A stretch of DNA of 64,000 bases from assembly GCF_023566055.1 (NCBI RefSeq), contig NZ_JALIQP010000003.1:496001-560000 (forward strand). Direction: 5' to 3'. Each line of letters opens with the position of its first letter. Within the stretch, counting starts at the first letter, position 1. The DNA comes from Halosolutus amylolyticus (GTDB lineage Archaea > Halobacteriota > Halobacteria > Halobacteriales > Natrialbaceae). Of the stretch, positions 25,034-36,467 are shown in pieces. The translations under genes and the position numbers were made by a program. The notes below the pieces were generated by a model. That model was not told where the DNA came from. It saw only the letters and a list, made by a program, of their open reading frames with translations, and did no database searches.

Positions 25034-25546
25034 TCACGAAGAGCGGGGCTTGGCGTCGTCCGCGTCAGCAGCGTCGTCGTCCTTATCGACGCTTTCCGTA
25101 CCGTCATCGTCGTTCGCATCGTTCTCGCCATCACCGACGTCGGTCTCGTCATCACTCACGTCGTTCCCATCGTCGCTCTCTCGATCCTCATCGTCGCTTT
25201 CCTCGTTCTCGTCGTCGTCATCATCGTCGCTTTCCTCGTTCTCGCCGTCGTCACTATCGATCGACTCGTTCCCGTCACCGTCCTCTTCGTCAGCGGGCGC
25301 GCTATCGTCCGAGTCGCCGTCCTCGCGTTGGTCGTCGTCCCCGGTCTCGTTGCGGTCGGCCGACGCGACCCCGGTATCGGCTCCCGACACGTCATACGCA
25401 TCCACGGATACCTCGCCGTCGACGACAACGTCGAGCGTTTCGGTGTCAGTAAAGACCGCCTCGGTGTAGCCGATCGCGGAGAGGCCGCTGAGGAGGACGA
25501 GTAGGCCGAGAAGCGCGGCTAGCGGTTTACTCGTCACGGACCTCAC
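25034..25546 (-). CDS. SipW-type exported protein with acidic low-complexity tail
   Basis: The 170-residue product starts with a hydrophobic signal (LAALLGLLVLLSGLSAIGYT) followed by AVFTDTETL, the cleavage-region style of SipW substrates. About 40 ordered residues (LDVVVDGEVSVDAYDV) are followed by roughly 110 residues of Asp, Glu, Ser and Asn. The tail contains an exact 24-base DNA repeat. It overlaps the SipW gene by 20 bases, strongly suggesting it is a substrate. The function is unknown; it may be a small matrix or pilus-associated protein. Confidence 0.65.
   Translation of the reverse strand: MRSVTSKPLAALLGLLVLLSGLSAIGYTEAVFTDTETLDVVVDGEVSVDAYDVSGADTGVASADRNETGDDDQREDGDSDDSAPADEEDGDGNESIDSDDGENEESDDDDDDENEESDDEDRESDDGNDVSDDETDVGDGENDANDDDGTESVDKDDDAADADDAKPRSS
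25188..25244. repeat. Direct repeat inside the acidic tail
   Basis: A 24-base sequence at 25188-25211 recurs exactly at 25221-25244, a 33-base period (11 codons). On the minus strand it encodes ENEESDD units, so unit number could vary between strains without shifting the frame. Confidence 0.7.
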
Positions 25547-26903
25547 CTCCGGTCTCCACGCAGTCCGCGTCCCACGAGTCCAGTTCGACGTCCCAGTCGA
25601 CGGCCGCGTCGGGGTTCTCGGAACCGACGGGGATTTGTTCCTCGGCCCAGTCGAACTGGCTCGAACGGGCCGCCCGAGACGTGTTGGAGGCTATCGACGT
25701 CGACCCATTCGATCGCGATTCCTCGGCGGTCCGGGTCTGCGGATCGTCCTGGGCGCCCATCGTCGACTCGGAGGTCTCGGGTTCGCTCTCCGGACTCGAG
25801 GGCGGTTCGCTCGGCAGTTGTGACCGCGCGGCGAGCACGAGGGCCAGACTGGTCGTCGAAGCGGTGACCACCACCACCGAGACCATGTCCGGCACGCCGG
25901 TCCGGAGATAGCTCGTGTACGTCACCCAGCCGCTGTATCCTGCCAGTGCGGCGAGCAGGATCGGTGAGATCGTCAGATCGATCGCGGTGAGCTGGTACCC
26001 ATCCGCACCCGCGTCGGCCGCTGTTTCGGCTTCAGATTCGAGGTCTGCGCCGACGTCGTCGCTCGTCGCTCGATCGGTCGCGGCCATCTCCACGGACCGT
26101 TTTTCGGTCTTTGTCGCGGCCCCCGGACTCGCCTCCTCGGGTGCCAGCTCGTGATCGGTCGCCGATCGGCCGCCGTCCCTGTCTCCGTCTTTTCCCGATC
26201 GCCCCGCGTAGATCGCCCACGCTTCCGAGAGGACGAACGCGGCGATTGGGAGCACGACCAGCGCGGCGAAGCCGAGCGGGGTGTTGACGAACGCGATCAT
26301 GTAACCGACGAGCGGGATCGTCCCGATGACGTGACCGATGTACTGATCCGCATTCACAGGGGCCGAGTCGACGTTGTCGTTCGCATCACCCTGGGTCCGG
26401 AACTGGCGGTCGTCGCCGCTCCCCTCCACCGAGACGACGCGATGGGTCGTCGGCGTCCCCTCGTCCGATCGCTGGTAGGTGATCACGTCCCCGCTCTCGA
26501 CCGTCGACGGATCGGTGTCCGCGACGAGGACCACGTCCCCCGGCGAGATCGCCGGCTCCATGCTGCCCGAGAGCACGACGAAGCTATACTGGGCGCCGAC
26601 GAGTTGGGGGACCGCGACCACGACGAACGGGATGACGACGGCGACCACGAGCAGGGTTGCGGCGATCCGTCCCGCTCGTCGCAACTTCTCACCCGACACC
26701 GGACCGAGCCAGCCGGAGTCGTCGTCCGACGGCTGGCGCTCCGATTCCGGTGGCCCGTTCGGATCGGAATCCGTCACCGAGTTCGATGGGATCCCAGAAT
26801 CGGAATCCGCCTCCGTTTCCGCCGCCGGTACTCGCTCGGCCGTCTCCGCCTCGTGTGTCGGTCGATCCGTCTCCGCCGTCTCCCCTGTCGTTCGCTCTCT
26901 CAT
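25527..26903 (-). CDS. SipW-type signal peptidase I
   Basis: The ATG at 26903 gives 458 residues. An acidic N-terminal region of about 70 residues precedes a transmembrane helix and the catalytic domain. The nucleophile is in VLSGSMEPAISPGDVV, TTHRVVSV carries the His that replaces bacterial Lys in SipW/Sec11-type enzymes, and QGDANDNVD is the conserved Asp region. A second helix follows, then a long acidic linker, two more hydrophobic segments and a disordered tail. The length is about twice the family norm. It processes SipW-type precursors, here most likely the four neighbours. The previous gene ends one base before this ATG. Confidence 0.85.
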   Translation of the reverse strand: MRERTTGETAETDRPTHEAETAERVPAAETEADSDSGIPSNSVTDSDPNGPPESERQPSDDDSGWLGPVSGEKLRRAGRIAATLLVVAVVIPFVVVAVPQLVGAQYSFVVLSGSMEPAISPGDVVLVADTDPSTVESGDVITYQRSDEGTPTTHRVVSVEGSGDDRQFRTQGDANDNVDSAPVNADQYIGHVIGTIPLVGYMIAFVNTPLGFAALVVLPIAAFVLSEAWAIYAGRSGKDGDRDGGRSATDHELAPEEASPGAATKTEKRSVEMAATDRATSDDVGADLESEAETAADAGADGYQLTAIDLTISPILLAALAGYSGWVTYTSYLRTGVPDMVSVVVVTASTTSLALVLAARSQLPSEPPSSPESEPETSESTMGAQDDPQTRTAEESRSNGSTSIASNTSRAARSSQFDWAEEQIPVGSENPDAAVDWDVELDSWDADCVETGGEVRDE

Positions 26904-26904
26904 G

Positions 26905-28062
26905 TCAGTGACACCCTCCCTCGGCCGCACAGATCGCGATTGTCACGTGGCTGATTCCGTAGTACTCCGGAGAATCGTCGCCGGAATCGCGTCGTGGCGC
27001 GTACACGAGTCCGTCCCCGTCGCTCCCCTCGAGCGCTCCAGTCGTATTCTCGAACGGCCCGTCGACCGGCGGTTCGTACGTCTCGATCGCCGGACCGGTG
27101 CCGTCCGGATCCCGACCGCCGGCGACGTCGACTCGACAGAGCGCCGGTCCTCGGTGGCCGTCCTCATCGACGATGTCGAACGCGATCGCGACGGTTTCCC
27201 GATCGCCGCTGTCGGGCTTGTCTGCGACGTCCGTGACGCGGAGTTCGTATCTCGACGCCCCCTCGGAGAACGCGTACGTTCCCGGCTCGATCCGATTCTC
27301 ACCGATCCCGGCCGGCCCGTCGGCCTCGAGTTCCAGTTTGCCGACGTCGAGACAGCAGGGGCAGGGATCGGCTGGCGGGCACGGTGGAGCGGGGTCGAAT
27401 GGCGGCGCGGACCGATCCGTGTGCCTGCACTGGCGTCCGACGACCGCCAGCGACGGCGCCGCCGACTCGTCGCCGACGTATCCCGCGATGTCCCACTTGA
27501 CCCGGAGACACACCGCGTCGCCGGGGGCGACGCACTCGCGCCCGTCGATCGGCGCGTCGGGGTCCCGGCCGCCGTCGAGGGCGATTCCCCTTGCGAGGAT
27601 GTCGAACACGTCGCGGAACGATCCCGCTGTCAGTTCCCCGCCGGGCAACGGGTCGCCGGTTTCACAGTTCGCGTACGAGAGGGTGAGACGAGCGACCTCG
27701 CCGAACGTTCCGAGGGACCCAGAATCGGGACACGTCCCCCTGAGCCAGAGGTCGGCGGGATTGTTCTCCGTTCGCTCCGTCGGTCCGATCTCAAGGACCG
27801 CAGCCCCACGCCTGTGGTGCCCGTCGTACGCGATCGGAAGGTCGAAGCGACCGTCGCTTCGGCCCGTTTCGCCGGCGTTCGGCCCGTCGACGAGCTCCCA
27901 GTCGATTCGCAGATCCAGCGCGCCCGTCGTGAGGACGGCGCCGACTCGCTCCGCGTCGCTGAGCAACGACGTCGTCGCTCCGTTCGTCGCAAGGCCGCCG
28001 GATCCGACCGCCACCCCCGCGAGCAGGCGGCGACGCGTGATGCCCGGTCGATCGTCAGCCAT
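26905..28062 (-). CDS. Tat-signal TasA/camelysin-like surface protein
   Basis: ATG 28062 (MADDRPGITRRRLLAGVAVG) is preferred to the longer frame because it places the twin-arginine signal at the N-terminus; the product has 385 residues. The segment GELTAGSFRDVFDILARGIALDGG aligns with equivalent segments in the proteins at 30048 and 28536, and a CRVDVAGG/YGISHVTIAICAAEG core ends the protein. A Cys/Pro-rich insert (PPCPPADPCPCCLDVGKL) may bind metal or form disulfides. It is probably an extracellular matrix or pilus-like component handled by the adjacent signal peptidase; this is inferred from context. Confidence 0.6.
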   Translation of the reverse strand: MADDRPGITRRRLLAGVAVGSGGLATNGATTSLLSDAERVGAVLTTGALDLRIDWELVDGPNAGETGRSDGRFDLPIAYDGHHRRGAAVLEIGPTERTENNPADLWLRGTCPDSGSLGTFGEVARLTLSYANCETGDPLPGGELTAGSFRDVFDILARGIALDGGRDPDAPIDGRECVAPGDAVCLRVKWDIAGYVGDESAAPSLAVVGRQCRHTDRSAPPFDPAPPCPPADPCPCCLDVGKLELEADGPAGIGENRIEPGTYAFSEGASRYELRVTDVADKPDSGDRETVAIAFDIVDEDGHRGPALCRVDVAGGRDPDGTGPAIETYEPPVDGPFENTTGALEGSDGDGLVYAPRRDSGDDSPEYYGISHVTIAICAAEGGCH

Positions 28063-28193
28063 CGACGCGGGATCCACCTCCGTTCTGCCCGTCCTCGAAG
28101 AACCGGCGGCGTCGCGCGCCGCACTCCGACGGTCGATCTCGAGGACTGCGTTCGCGCATGAGTTGTTCGATCGACTCTCGATCGATTCCGTAC

Positions 28194-28262
28194 CCGGATA
28201 TGTATACTCCGTGTACCGCCCGGTACACCGGCCGTGTCGGGCCGGTATACTCGTCATACCGG
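28194..28262 (-). promoter_or_regulatory. CCGGTA operator-like array, copy A
   Basis: In the minus direction it reads CCGGTATG-N9-CCGG, then a spacer, then CGGTGTACCGGGCGGTACA, N6 and ATACATATCCGG. It includes perfect inverted repeats (GGCCGGTAT/ATACCGGCC and TGTACCG/CGGTACA). The last 37 bases match copy B (31092-31159) at 30 positions. It is 130-200 bases upstream of the 28062 start. Confidence 0.6.
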
Positions 28263-28389
28263 CCGCGTATCCGCATCAAACCGTCGCCGAGACCGCACTC
28301 GGTGCTGCCGATCAGCCCGGCCCCCGACACCGATCGGTTTCGGAACGGTCGTTCGCTCACTGTGTCTCCGCTCATCATCTCCCCCGGAC

Positions 28390-28432
28390 GGCCCACCGGC
28401 GGAGTCGAACCGCCGTCGCACCCGTGTGGGCC
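28390..28432 (-). ncRNA. tRNA acceptor/T-arm minihelix-like structure
   Basis: On the minus strand, GGCCCAC, a 10-nt linker, CGGCGG, the loop TTCGACT, CCGCCG and GTGGGCC occur in that order. The outer 7-base and inner 6-base stems pair perfectly. The loop fits the T-loop consensus UUCRANY with its flanking G-C pair. D and anticodon arms are absent. It could be a decayed tRNA, a tRNA-mimic RNA element or a 3'-end structure of the 28536 transcript. Confidence 0.4.
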
Positions 28433-28535
28433 GATCGATCGCGAACGAGGGTGACGCGACCGCGTCGCGGTTCGCGCGCCGTCGATCGTCGCGTCTCGCG
28501 CCTCGATCGCCCGTCGTCGATGCCGATCGGTTATC

Positions 28536-30017
28536 CTACGCGGTCGACCCGCTGCCGTCGTTGTGTCGGGCCTGTTCGGCGTAGAAGCCGACGTCGAACG
28601 TGACAGAGTCGGTCTGGACCTCGTTGCCGACGTCGGTCGGCAGCTCCCACTCGAACCCGAGACAGTGGGTCGCTGCTGGCTCGAAGGGGTCGCGGTCCTC
28701 GTGATCACCGGCGGCGGGTTCGCCGCCGTCGATCTCGTCGTACACGCTCTCGCGATCGCCGTCGAGCGGGATGCCGTCGTCGGTTTCGAGGATTCCCATG
28801 AGTTCCGCGAGCGTGCCGCTGAAGATCTCCTTCTCGCCTGCGATGATCTGTCCGATGCGGCTGAACGCGTCGATCAGTTCGTCCGCGTCGCCGGCGTCGA
28901 AGAAGTGAGCGTCCGCCGGGTCGCTGGCCATGGCCTGCAGCGTGGTCGTGTCGGCGGAGCCGAACGCGACGGTGTAGAGTTCGATCCCCTCGTTCTTCGC
29001 GTTCGTCGCCTCGTCGGTCGGATCCGCGCTCCCGTCTCCGTCGTCGTCGACGTTCGCTTCGCCGTCCGACATGACGACCATAATCTTGTCCGCGCCGCTA
29101 CGAGCGTTGGTTCCGTTGAGCAACTCGTCTTGTGCCGTGGTCACGCCGCCCTCGATGTTGGTCTGGCCGCCGGAGGAGAGGCCGTCGATCGCCGACTTCG
29201 CCGCGGCGCCGTCGTCGGTCAATCCCTGGTCCAGCGCCGCACTGGACGAGTAGCTGACGACGGTCACTCGGGCGTTTCCACCCAGTTCGTCGACGAGACC
29301 CTTGGCCGCGTCTTTCAGGTCCGACATCGAACCGGACATCGAACCGGAGCGGTCGAGGACCAGCGCGACGTCGACGTCGTCGCCGCCGTTCTCTTCGTCC
29401 GCGTCGTACTCGCAGTCGCAGTTCTCGTCGTACCAGACGCGGGTCTCGATCGAGTCGGCGAGTTCCCCCTCACCTTCGCCGTCGGTGTCGTCGACCTCCG
29501 ACTCCGGTTCGGTGAGCCCGTTGTCGTCGTTCGCCGTCAGCGAGCCGTTCATCCAGATGTATCCCGGATTGTCGCACAGGTGGAGGCTCGTCGTGAGGCA
29601 GCCGGAGTCGCCAGGCTTGACGTCTTCGAGCGCGATGGGTGAGATTTCGTCGCCGTTGACAAGCCGTTCGCGGGCCTGCTCGTCGCAGAACCCGTGTTCG
29701 AGGACGTACTGGTCCCAGTCTTCGATGTCGCCGGTGTCCGGCACCTCGTCGAGGAGGTAGACGCCCTCCTCGGCGTCGATCACCTCGGCGCCGTCGTAGC
29801 CCATCCCCCGGATCTCCTCCAGGCGGCCCGGGCCGCCGTGGTACCTGACCTGGTAGTCGAGCAGGAGGTCGAGTTCTCCCGCCGCCAAGCTGTTTCCGTC
29901 GAACGATTCCTCGTCGTTGAAGTACGCGCTCGTACCGAGGGCTGCGCCGGCGGATGAAACGCCGACCACGCCGACCCCAGCCAGGAGCTTACGTCGTGAA
30001 ATGTTTCCGTTCGTCAT
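28536..30017 (-). CDS. SipW-dependent TasA/camelysin-like protein with inserted VWA domain
   Basis: The 493-residue product starts with a twin-arginine motif (ISRRKLLAGVGVVG) and a SipW-type cleavage region (GTSAYFNDEESF), almost the same as its neighbour at 30048. The outer scaffold (GELDLLLDYQ..., DVKPGDSGCLTTSLHLCDNPGYIW, FEWELPTDVGNEVQTDSVTFD) aligns with that neighbour. Between ELADSIETRVWYDENCDC and FSGTLAELMGIL sits a von Willebrand factor A domain of about 175 residues with the complete MIDAS motif DRSGSMS and VMSDGEAN. It is probably an adhesive surface fibre component. It lies 30 bases after 30048 in one operon. Confidence 0.75.
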   Translation of the reverse strand: MTNGNISRRKLLAGVGVVGVSSAGAALGTSAYFNDEESFDGNSLAAGELDLLLDYQVRYHGGPGRLEEIRGMGYDGAEVIDAEEGVYLLDEVPDTGDIEDWDQYVLEHGFCDEQARERLVNGDEISPIALEDVKPGDSGCLTTSLHLCDNPGYIWMNGSLTANDDNGLTEPESEVDDTDGEGEGELADSIETRVWYDENCDCEYDADEENGGDDVDVALVLDRSGSMSGSMSDLKDAAKGLVDELGGNARVTVVSYSSSAALDQGLTDDGAAAKSAIDGLSSGGQTNIEGGVTTAQDELLNGTNARSGADKIMVVMSDGEANVDDDGDGSADPTDEATNAKNEGIELYTVAFGSADTTTLQAMASDPADAHFFDAGDADELIDAFSRIGQIIAGEKEIFSGTLAELMGILETDDGIPLDGDRESVYDEIDGGEPAAGDHEDRDPFEPAATHCLGFEWELPTDVGNEVQTDSVTFDVGFYAEQARHNDGSGSTA

Positions 30018-30047
30018 TGGTTGCGTGTTCCGTCAATTACGTGTGGG

Positions 30048-30896
30048 TCAGTTGTTGCCGTCCGAGTCGTCCGCGAACGGGTTGTTCTCGCCGGTGTTGT
30101 GCCGCGACTGCTCCGCGTGGAACGCGAGATCGAACTCGACGCTGTCCGTCTGGATCTCGTTCCCGACGGACGTCGGCACCTCCCATTCCAGGCAGACGCA
30201 GGTGTCGTCGTGCTCGTCGGGCTCTTCGACGCCTTCGAAGGGGACTCGATCGCCGGGTTCGGCGTCGCCGTTCCCGTCGCCGTCGAGCGCGATCCCGTCC
30301 GCGAGGGCCGCCAGCACCTCTTTGAGCGTTCCGCTCTCGATTGCATCGCCGTCGACCGTAGCGCCGTCGGCATCCTCCCCGCAGTAGCGTAGCGTCGCCT
30401 CGATGGCGTCGGCGAGTTCGCCCTCGCCGTTCGGATCGCCCGGATCGTTGGCGTCCCCGCCGGCCTGGGTCTCCGGCTCGGGTTCGGTGTAACCGTTCTC
30501 GTCGTTCGCGGTCAGCTCGCCGCCAGCCCACACGAACGCGGGGTTGTCGACGATCGAGAAGCAGAAGTCCAGCGAGCCGCTGTCGCCGGGCTTGACGTCT
30601 GCGAGGCCGTAGCTAACGGACACCTCGTCGCCCTCGTGTTCGTCCACGCCGCCCTGGACGGTTCCGCTCGTCGGTTCGCCGAGGTTCTCGCCCTCCACGC
30701 CGTCCTGATCGGCGGTGAACTCGTAGTGAACGTACAGATCGAGTTCGCCGGCCGCCAGGCTGTTGTCGTCGAACGATTCCTCGTCGTTGAAGTACGCGGT
30801 CGTGCCGAGGCCGGCTCCCGCGGACGCGACGCCGATCGCGCCGAGTCCGCCGATTACCTGCCGCCTCGACAGCGAGTAGCTTCTGTCTTCTGTCAT
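30048..30896 (-). CDS. SipW-dependent TasA/camelysin-like protein
   Basis: The 282-residue protein has a Tat motif (LSRRQVIGGLGAIG), a SipW-type region (GTTAYFNDEESFDDNSLAAG) and a beta-rich body (ELDLYVHYEF, LADVKPGDSGSLDFCFSI, CLEWEVPTSVGNEIQTDS). This layout matches proteins annotated as SipW-dependent or TasA-like in archaea, which form extracellular fibres or matrix. The acidic Gly/Asp/Glu-rich central loop is the position where the paralogue carries its VWA domain. It is the first gene of the minus-strand cluster and diverges from the DUF7344-type gene at 31188. Confidence 0.7.
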   Translation of the reverse strand: MTEDRSYSLSRRQVIGGLGAIGVASAGAGLGTTAYFNDEESFDDNSLAAGELDLYVHYEFTADQDGVEGENLGEPTSGTVQGGVDEHEGDEVSVSYGLADVKPGDSGSLDFCFSIVDNPAFVWAGGELTANDENGYTEPEPETQAGGDANDPGDPNGEGELADAIEATLRYCGEDADGATVDGDAIESGTLKEVLAALADGIALDGDGNGDAEPGDRVPFEGVEEPDEHDDTCVCLEWEVPTSVGNEIQTDSVEFDLAFHAEQSRHNTGENNPFADDSDGNN

Positions 30897-31091
30897 GGGT
30901 GTTCGGTGTCCCCCCCGGCGCCGATCGCCGATCGCGTCGGTTCGGCCCGGACGGGCTGATTCGGGCGTCGATCGGGGGGACTATACCTATGAGCCGATTC
31001 GGTGTGACCGAACGATCCGTGGAGCGATCTAAACCCGCCGTTCGGCGATCTTATTGATGGCTTGTGGGTCTAGGCCAGGGAAACTAGCAGA

Positions 31092-31159
31092 CCGGTATGC
31101 TAACCCGACCGGACGGCACGATCGGTTTACCGGCCGGTACAGCGATCATACATACCCGG
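31092..31159 (+). promoter_or_regulatory. CCGGTA operator-like array, copy B
   Basis: It reads CCGGTATG-N9-CCGG, then a spacer, then CGGTTTACCGGCCGGTACA, N6 and ATACATACCCGG. The ATACATA part ends about 30 bases before ATG 31188, where a TATA box would be. A protein bound here would overlap the promoter, and the site also lies in the region divergent to 30896. Confidence 0.6.
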
Positions 31160-31187: not shown

Positions 31188-31736
31188 ATGTTCACACGGA
31201 GCACCACCGTCCCGGAACGGGAGATCCACCAGGTCCTGAGCAACGCCAGGCGTCGGCGGACGCTCGAACAGCTCCGAAGTTCGAGGGGAACGATAACCCT
31301 TCGCGAACTCGCCGAGCGGATCGCGACGATAGAAACCGGGGAGTCGCCCGCACCCCGCAACGTGCGCCAGAGCGTCTACACGTCGCTCCACCAGACCCAC
31401 CTTCGCCGCCTCGACGAACTCGGCATCGTCGAGTACGACGAGAATCGAAAAGTGGTCAGGCTTCGCGAGCGCGCCCGTCGCGTCTCGCTCTACATGGAAG
31501 TCGAGACGCCCTTCGGAATCAGCTGGGCCGAGTACTACCGGCTCCTCGGCGTCGGGAGTCTCTTCGTCGTGGTCGCGGCGATGGGAGACGCCCCCGGCTT
31601 CTCGGCCGTCGACCCGCTGCTGTGGGGCGTGTGTTTCCTGCTCGTCTACGGGCTCTCGTCCGCCTACCAGCTCTGGCGGAACCGCTGGACGGTGCTACAG
31701 CTGTTCCGATCGTCGGTACACCGCGTTCGAAGATAA
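31188..31736 (+). CDS. Membrane-anchored DUF7344-type HTH regulator 1
   Basis: The 182-residue protein has an N-terminal winged-helix region with the haloarchaeal DUF7344 signature: VLSNARRRRTLEQLRSSRG, LRELAERIATIETG, VYTSLHQTHLRRLDELGIVEYD. Two transmembrane helices follow (about residues 128-150 and 152-172). It is thus a one-component regulator held at the membrane. A dense inverted-repeat operator covers its own promoter and recurs in the SipW cluster, so it probably regulates both. No ligand-binding domain is seen. Confidence 0.75.
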   Translation: MFTRSTTVPEREIHQVLSNARRRRTLEQLRSSRGTITLRELAERIATIETGESPAPRNVRQSVYTSLHQTHLRRLDELGIVEYDENRKVVRLRERARRVSLYMEVETPFGISWAEYYRLLGVGSLFVVVAAMGDAPGFSAVDPLLWGVCFLLVYGLSSAYQLWRNRWTVLQLFRSSVHRVRR

Positions 31737-35882: not shown

Positions 35883-36467
35883 ATGGAATCGATACAAATC
35901 GACTCGGGGGGAGCGGAGCACGGCAGACAGGACTCGATCGAGGCGGATCCCCCTGATTCGTTCGCGTCACTTTCGAGGGACAGCCTCTTCGAAGTCCTGT
36001 CGAACGCACGGCGTCGGTCGATAATCGCGTACCTGAACGGCACCGACACCGAGACGGTGACGGTTCGCGACCTCGCCGAACAGATCGCCGCCTGGGAAAA
36101 CGGCATCTCGGTCGCCGAGGTAACCTACAAGGAACGAAAGCGGGTGTACACGTCGCTCTACCAGCTACACCTCGAAAAACTCCACCGATTGGGCATCGTC
36201 AGGTACGATCAGGACAGGGGAATCGTCGAGCAGACGCCGATCACCGCGCAACTGGAGTCGTATCTGGATACCGATGTCGACGACGAGGACGACGGCGGCA
36301 CCTGGGCGCGACTGTCGCTCGCCATCTCGACCGGCTGTGCCGTGATCGTCCTTCTCGCCTGGGTCCTTCCCGTCGGCTCGGTAAACGGGTTCGGTATCGC
36401 GTCACTCATCGCCGTCGCCTTCCTCGTCGTGTCGATCGCGCAGGTCCTCGACGAACACGACGGGTAA
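35883..36467 (+). CDS. Membrane-anchored DUF7344-type HTH regulator 2
   Basis: The 194-residue protein shares the plan of the one at 31188: a winged-helix region (LFEVLSNARRRSIIAYLNG, VRDLAEQIAAWENG, VYTSLYQLHLEKLHRLGIVRYD), then two transmembrane helices (about residues 142-160 and 165-185). Its N-terminal 30 residues are acidic and Ser-rich. It is the second such regulator within 5 kb, separated from the first by the three signalling genes. It is likely self-regulated through the GGTAACT repeats upstream; target genes are unknown. Confidence 0.75.
   Translation: MESIQIDSGGAEHGRQDSIEADPPDSFASLSRDSLFEVLSNARRRSIIAYLNGTDTETVTVRDLAEQIAAWENGISVAEVTYKERKRVYTSLYQLHLEKLHRLGIVRYDQDRGIVEQTPITAQLESYLDTDVDDEDDGGTWARLSLAISTGCAVIVLLAWVLPVGSVNGFGIASLIAVAFLVVSIAQVLDEHDG

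Follow-up and report, generated by a model that had tools for sequence, protein, structure and literature searches.

Two stretches of intergenic DNA in a 64-kb window of the Halosolutus amylolyticus genome (the whole stretch of 64,000 nt that was analyzed) carry nearly the same array of short half-sites, one upstream of a gene cluster for SipW-type export and the other upstream of a DUF7344 gene. This raises the question of which protein reads the two copies and what it does at the two promoters. The copies and their parts are as follows.

28194 to 28262, minus strand: array copy A, preceding the surface-protein gene (28062) and sipW (25527)
28214 to 28225, minus strand: near-palindrome TACCGGGCGGTA of copy A
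28199 to 28218, minus strand: module CGGTA-N8-ATACATA of copy A (half-site 28214-28218, TATA-like box 28199-28205)
31092 to 31159, plus strand: array copy B, preceding the gene for the DUF7344 regulator
31128 to 31139, plus strand: palindrome TACCGGCCGGTA of copy B
31135 to 31154, plus strand: module CGGTA-N8-ATACATA of copy B (half-site 31135-31139, TATA-like box 31148-31154)

The first-pass annotation had placed and aligned the two copies correctly: they have 69 (A) and 68 bases (B), and a single-base gap suffices to align them over their full length. The agreement that it had reported for the 37-base core at the 3′-end, 30 of 37 bases, was borne out as well. This is also the best 37-base match between the two full intergenic regions, whereas 1000 dinucleotide shuffles reached a maximum of 27 and a mean of 22.4. 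Elsewhere in the window, the best matches to the core had 21-26 of 37 bases, and the top ones were the near-palindromes of the copies themselves. With up to three mismatches, the core occurs twice in the 4.59-Mb genome, only at A and B, and thus it is not a dispersed repeat. A 32-base version was absent from all other genomes among the 125 family genomes searched, and a slightly shortened core retrieved from 392 genomes of the order only this genome and one match with three mismatches (G173) of no clear relation. An ungapped search did not reveal a second array copy within the clusters of relatives. Judged from the sequences, the part of the array that is conserved among relatives is the short promoter module alone.

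The genes around the two copies are listed below.

25034 to 25546, minus strand: ORF for a small exported-looking protein after sipW, with a homologue after sipW in the related genome G070
25527 to 26903, minus strand: SipW-like archaeal signal peptidase I (TIGR02228, 106 bits, cut-off 51.85)
26905 to 28062, minus strand: surface-protein gene downstream of copy A, the first substantial gene of the sipW unit
28536 to 30017, minus strand: SipW-type substrate with a von Willebrand A domain (PF00092, 6e-30; TIGR04088, 27.5 bits, cut-off 19)
30048 to 30896, minus strand: SipW-dependent-type substrate, divergent from the regulator gene (TIGR04088, 30.7 bits, cut-off 19)
31188 to 31736, plus strand: DUF7344 (PF24035) winged-helix protein, the proposed binder of A and B (Pfam E 5.2e-28)

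A SipW-like peptidase and cognate signal-peptide substrates are thus encoded side by side, as is characteristic of a SipW-type export system. The arrangement resembles the Bacillus tapA-sipW-tasA operon, in which the SipW peptidase is also encoded together with its substrates, but the cluster differs in that the TasA equivalog model NF046066 reached only 17.8 bits (cut-off 450); the Bacillus SipW equivalog was likewise missed, with 100.6 bits and a cut-off of 190. The regulators of the Bacillus operon, SinR and its relatives, are unrelated to the DUF7344 protein. The gene at 26905-28062 is kept before sipW in relatives, and its product matched no Pfam or NCBIfam family. The small protein after sipW, which matched no family either, is probably a further SipW substrate. 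A literature search found no paper on SipW in haloarchaea.

A short ORF (28055-28159, minus strand) lies between copy A and the 28062 gene, and its end overlaps the start codon of that gene. Comparable overlaps are found in G070 and Natronococcus (the L232 and L066 equivalents), and the ORF is possibly a leader ORF. Copy B is situated between divergent genes, with the regulator starting at 31188 and the substrate at 30896, so that, by position alone, the substrate operon might also be affected. An inverted repeat, TTCGGTGTGACCGAA (30998-31012), immediately precedes a TATA-like stretch of that operon and could be a separate operator. In many relatives (loci L036, L038, L040-L043, L045, L046, and L049), the substrate operon is preceded by a conserved GTAACTA/GTAGTTA element, at a distance of about 60-90 nt from the substrate start. 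In many cases, GTGACGTG lies about 8 bp from the element, which is absent from the window.

Both copies end in the module, i.e., a half-site followed at a fixed distance by a TATA-like box, and in copy B the module is 33 nt upstream of the start codon of the regulator gene. A search of the 125 family genomes gave exactly two occurrences of the module in this genome and exactly two in G070, where it precedes the regulator gene and the homologue of the 26905 gene, the same two promoters as here. G070 has the only regulator found in these genomes with more than 60% protein identity (66%), and the cluster is conserved. The counterparts are located as follows.

L232:6910, minus strand: G070 counterpart of copy A
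L232:10727, plus strand: G070 counterpart of copy B
L233:7572, plus strand: Natronococcus counterpart of copy A

As copies A and B align over their entire length and are 3 kb apart, they might be the product of a recent promoter duplication and be alike by descent, without any shared control. This is very unlikely: the spacers of the G070 promoters differ, while the half-sites and the 8-bp distance to ATACATA are unchanged, and the module is retained at the A-position promoter in Natronococcus and Saliphagus, in the latter with GGGTA as half-site, indicating that selection has maintained it. In Natronococcus, Saliphagus, and Halorubrum, variants of the module are found at the promoter of the regulator, of the sipW operon, or of both; in Halorubrum, the sipW operons open with GGGTAGG and then have ATACATA at equal spacing. 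In about 1.5 Mb of loci, [CG][AG]GTA preceded ATACATA at offset 13 in 22 of 47 cases, a count that takes in related rows, and of the other offsets from 6 to 27 only offset 25 was observed, twice.

Taken together, it is probable that A and B serve two promoters as cis-regulatory regions and answer to one local regulator, most likely the 31188 DUF7344 protein, acting as an activator of itself and of the sipW operon; we infer binding, sign, and signal. Two membrane helices would hold the protein at the membrane, and its winged-helix domain would recognize TACCG/CGGTA half-sites that face the same side of the DNA helix at intervals of about 21, 32, and 43 bp. At both promoters, the gene-proximal half-site is exactly 8 bp upstream of ATACATA, where the bound protein might contact TBP/TFB. 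The outcome would be positive self-regulation together with induction of the surface-protein/sipW operon, and export capacity could be adjusted to an envelope signal.

A half-site placed at a fixed distance ahead of the TATA box points to contact between regulator and basal factors and hence to activation, and help for TBP/TFB by the bound regulator appears moderately probable. The same protein could instead be a repressor that blocks TBP/TFB at A and B, regulates itself negatively, and keeps the sipW operon silent as long as no membrane signal arrives. Negative autoregulation is common for small winged-helix proteins, which counts for repression, and the proximal half-site and the near-palindrome, 8 bp from ATACATA, could overlap the BRE. 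However, a fixed 8-bp spacing is what one would rather expect of an activator in contact with basal factors, and Halorubrum is among the lineages in which a gap of about 50 bp or more separates the end of the array from the TATA-like box downstream; repression is therefore possible, but somewhat doubtful. Irrespective of the sign, the DUF7344 protein would most likely control itself and the SipW operon, as far as can be read from the DNA.

The half-sites were also analyzed upstream of the regulators of relatives. The substrate gene was divergent from the regulator gene within 900 nt in 43 of 80 named orthologue loci, usually with sipW near, and more distant DUF7344 genes without this arrangement served as control set. 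Within 300 nt upstream, TACCG was present 98 times in 40 SipW-linked regulators versus 21 times in 30 others, and CTACCG 46 times versus 3 times. One member of the control set, L059, was an exception in that sipW is about 2.3 kb away and an array is present. Inside the loci, same-strand TACCG motifs were spaced by 21-22, 32-34, 43-45, and 63-67 bp. After removal of near-duplicates, 31 same-strand pairs at 21-22 bp were observed versus 1.3 expected, with a maximum of 6 in 5000 trials. Chains with the 21-22 bp spacing were found upstream of the regulator in 14 of the 43 loci and only a single time elsewhere in 740 kb. When steps of 33 and 44 bp were permitted, 19 of the 43 SipW-linked loci had an array of direct repeats upstream of the regulator. 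Rows from Halorubrum predominate among the long arrays and related species are not independent, so that the independent origins of the array are fewer than the row counts. The phasing of half-sites relative to the start codon was weak across clades.

The pitch of the repeats and the winged-helix partner recall plasmid iterons, and thus the 22-bp direct repeats might be iteron-like sites for replication or partition. This is hardly conceivable, because the repeats lie directly upstream of TATA-like boxes within a conserved surface-protein cluster, and no replication gene was noticed alongside them among the ORFs read.

The array had been proposed to be shared by the regulator gene and the SipW cluster. 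This holds for the present genome, with the long array at both promoters, but in most relatives it is found at the regulator only. The expected co-occurrence of array and gene was likewise confirmed in part: the TACCG array accompanies the regulator in many species and tracks its clade, but a recognizable array is missing at 24 of the 43 SipW-linked loci. In the protein tree, one clade (support 94/92), which includes the regulator from the window, had the array in 20 of 32 rows, whereas it was present in 1 of 22 rows of the sister clade. Four species, Halorubrum halodurans, H. rubrum, H. aquaticum, and Halobellus captivus, each have one paralogue with the array and one without.

These data also bear on the view that a different, possibly global, regulator binds the TACCG sites and that the adjacent DUF7344 gene is merely another of its targets. 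Binding by the DUF7344 protein is itself our inference, and a single haloarchaeal genome can contain up to 37 DUF7344-like proteins (23 matches in this one), so that a paralogue could be the binder. The assignment of the DUF7344 protein as binder that controls itself and SipW export, made in the first-pass annotation, gains from the module at the same two promoters in G070, but CGGTA-N8-ATACATA also precedes the gene for a 263-residue protein in three genomes (G088, G090, and G092) in which no regulator orthologue was found at E 1e-30, and a related regulator may use the module there. The 263-residue protein (L222, L231, L236-L238) belongs to no known family. Another regulator is nevertheless unlikely. 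Nine whole genomes carry an array of at least three units, each at one locus only, immediately upstream of the DUF7344 regulator gene, and the distribution of the array, which goes with the regulator clade and can vary between paralogous clusters within one genome, favors the adjacent protein, which would thus recognize the array, over a genome-wide factor. Many other three-unit TACCG matches had near-identical spacers and were discarded as noise from unrelated tandem repeats.

The proposed regulator has 182 residues and is a clear DUF7344 member (97.7 bits against PF24035, gathering cut-off 27.8). In the AlphaFold2 model (pLDDT 91), residues 10-92 form a winged helix, and a helix at 96-103 leads directly into the first of two helices (113-132 and 143-164), predicted from their hydrophobic sequence to be membrane helices; there is no HAMP or sensor domain. 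None of the Foldseek matches reached E 0.001 (the best had E 0.033); among the weak ones were LmrR, SmtB, and E2F-DP. The library searched contained no paper on the DUF7344 family, and neither a function nor a DNA site was found for it.

Among the systems compared, ArnR/ArnR1 of Sulfolobus acidocaldarius appears by analogy to be most similar in its way of working. These membrane-bound one-component regulators act on promoters of surface structures, have an N-terminal HTH, two C-terminal membrane helices, and HAMP and sensor domains, and ArnR needs two boxes, TCGAC-N5-GTCGA, upstream of BRE/TATA (PMC6396743). The 31188 protein resembles them in its model, with a winged helix at the N-terminus and a pair of predicted membrane helices at the C-terminus, but it has no room for HAMP and sensor domains, and the putative site is TACCG/CGGTA. 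EarA from Methanococcus is likewise a winged-helix archaeal regulator with a short repeated site, TACATA, which occurs four times in a surface-structure promoter, but site and target system are different, and PMC6396743, which cites it, does not describe it as membrane-bound.

If the proposed control is true, an abundant uncharacterized family could be assigned a concrete role as well as a specific DNA site, and a testable regulator would be at hand for haloarchaeal SipW export clusters. The fixed distance between half-site and TATA box, together with the helically phased repeats, would offer a system for studying promoter contact by membrane-tethered archaeal regulators. It is quite possible, albeit speculative, that DUF7344 represents a large unrecognized class of membrane-tethered haloarchaeal transcription factors, with subfamilies that use half-site arrays private to them, both at their own promoters and at neighboring ones, and act as short one-component systems coupling the envelope state to surface-protein export.

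A second DUF7344 protein, Reg2, was dropped as a candidate for the array binder in Halorubrum, since no such gene was found at those Halorubrum loci that have the best arrays. It is encoded in the window at 35883-36467, and a similar second DUF7344 gene lies alongside many Natrialbaceae clusters.
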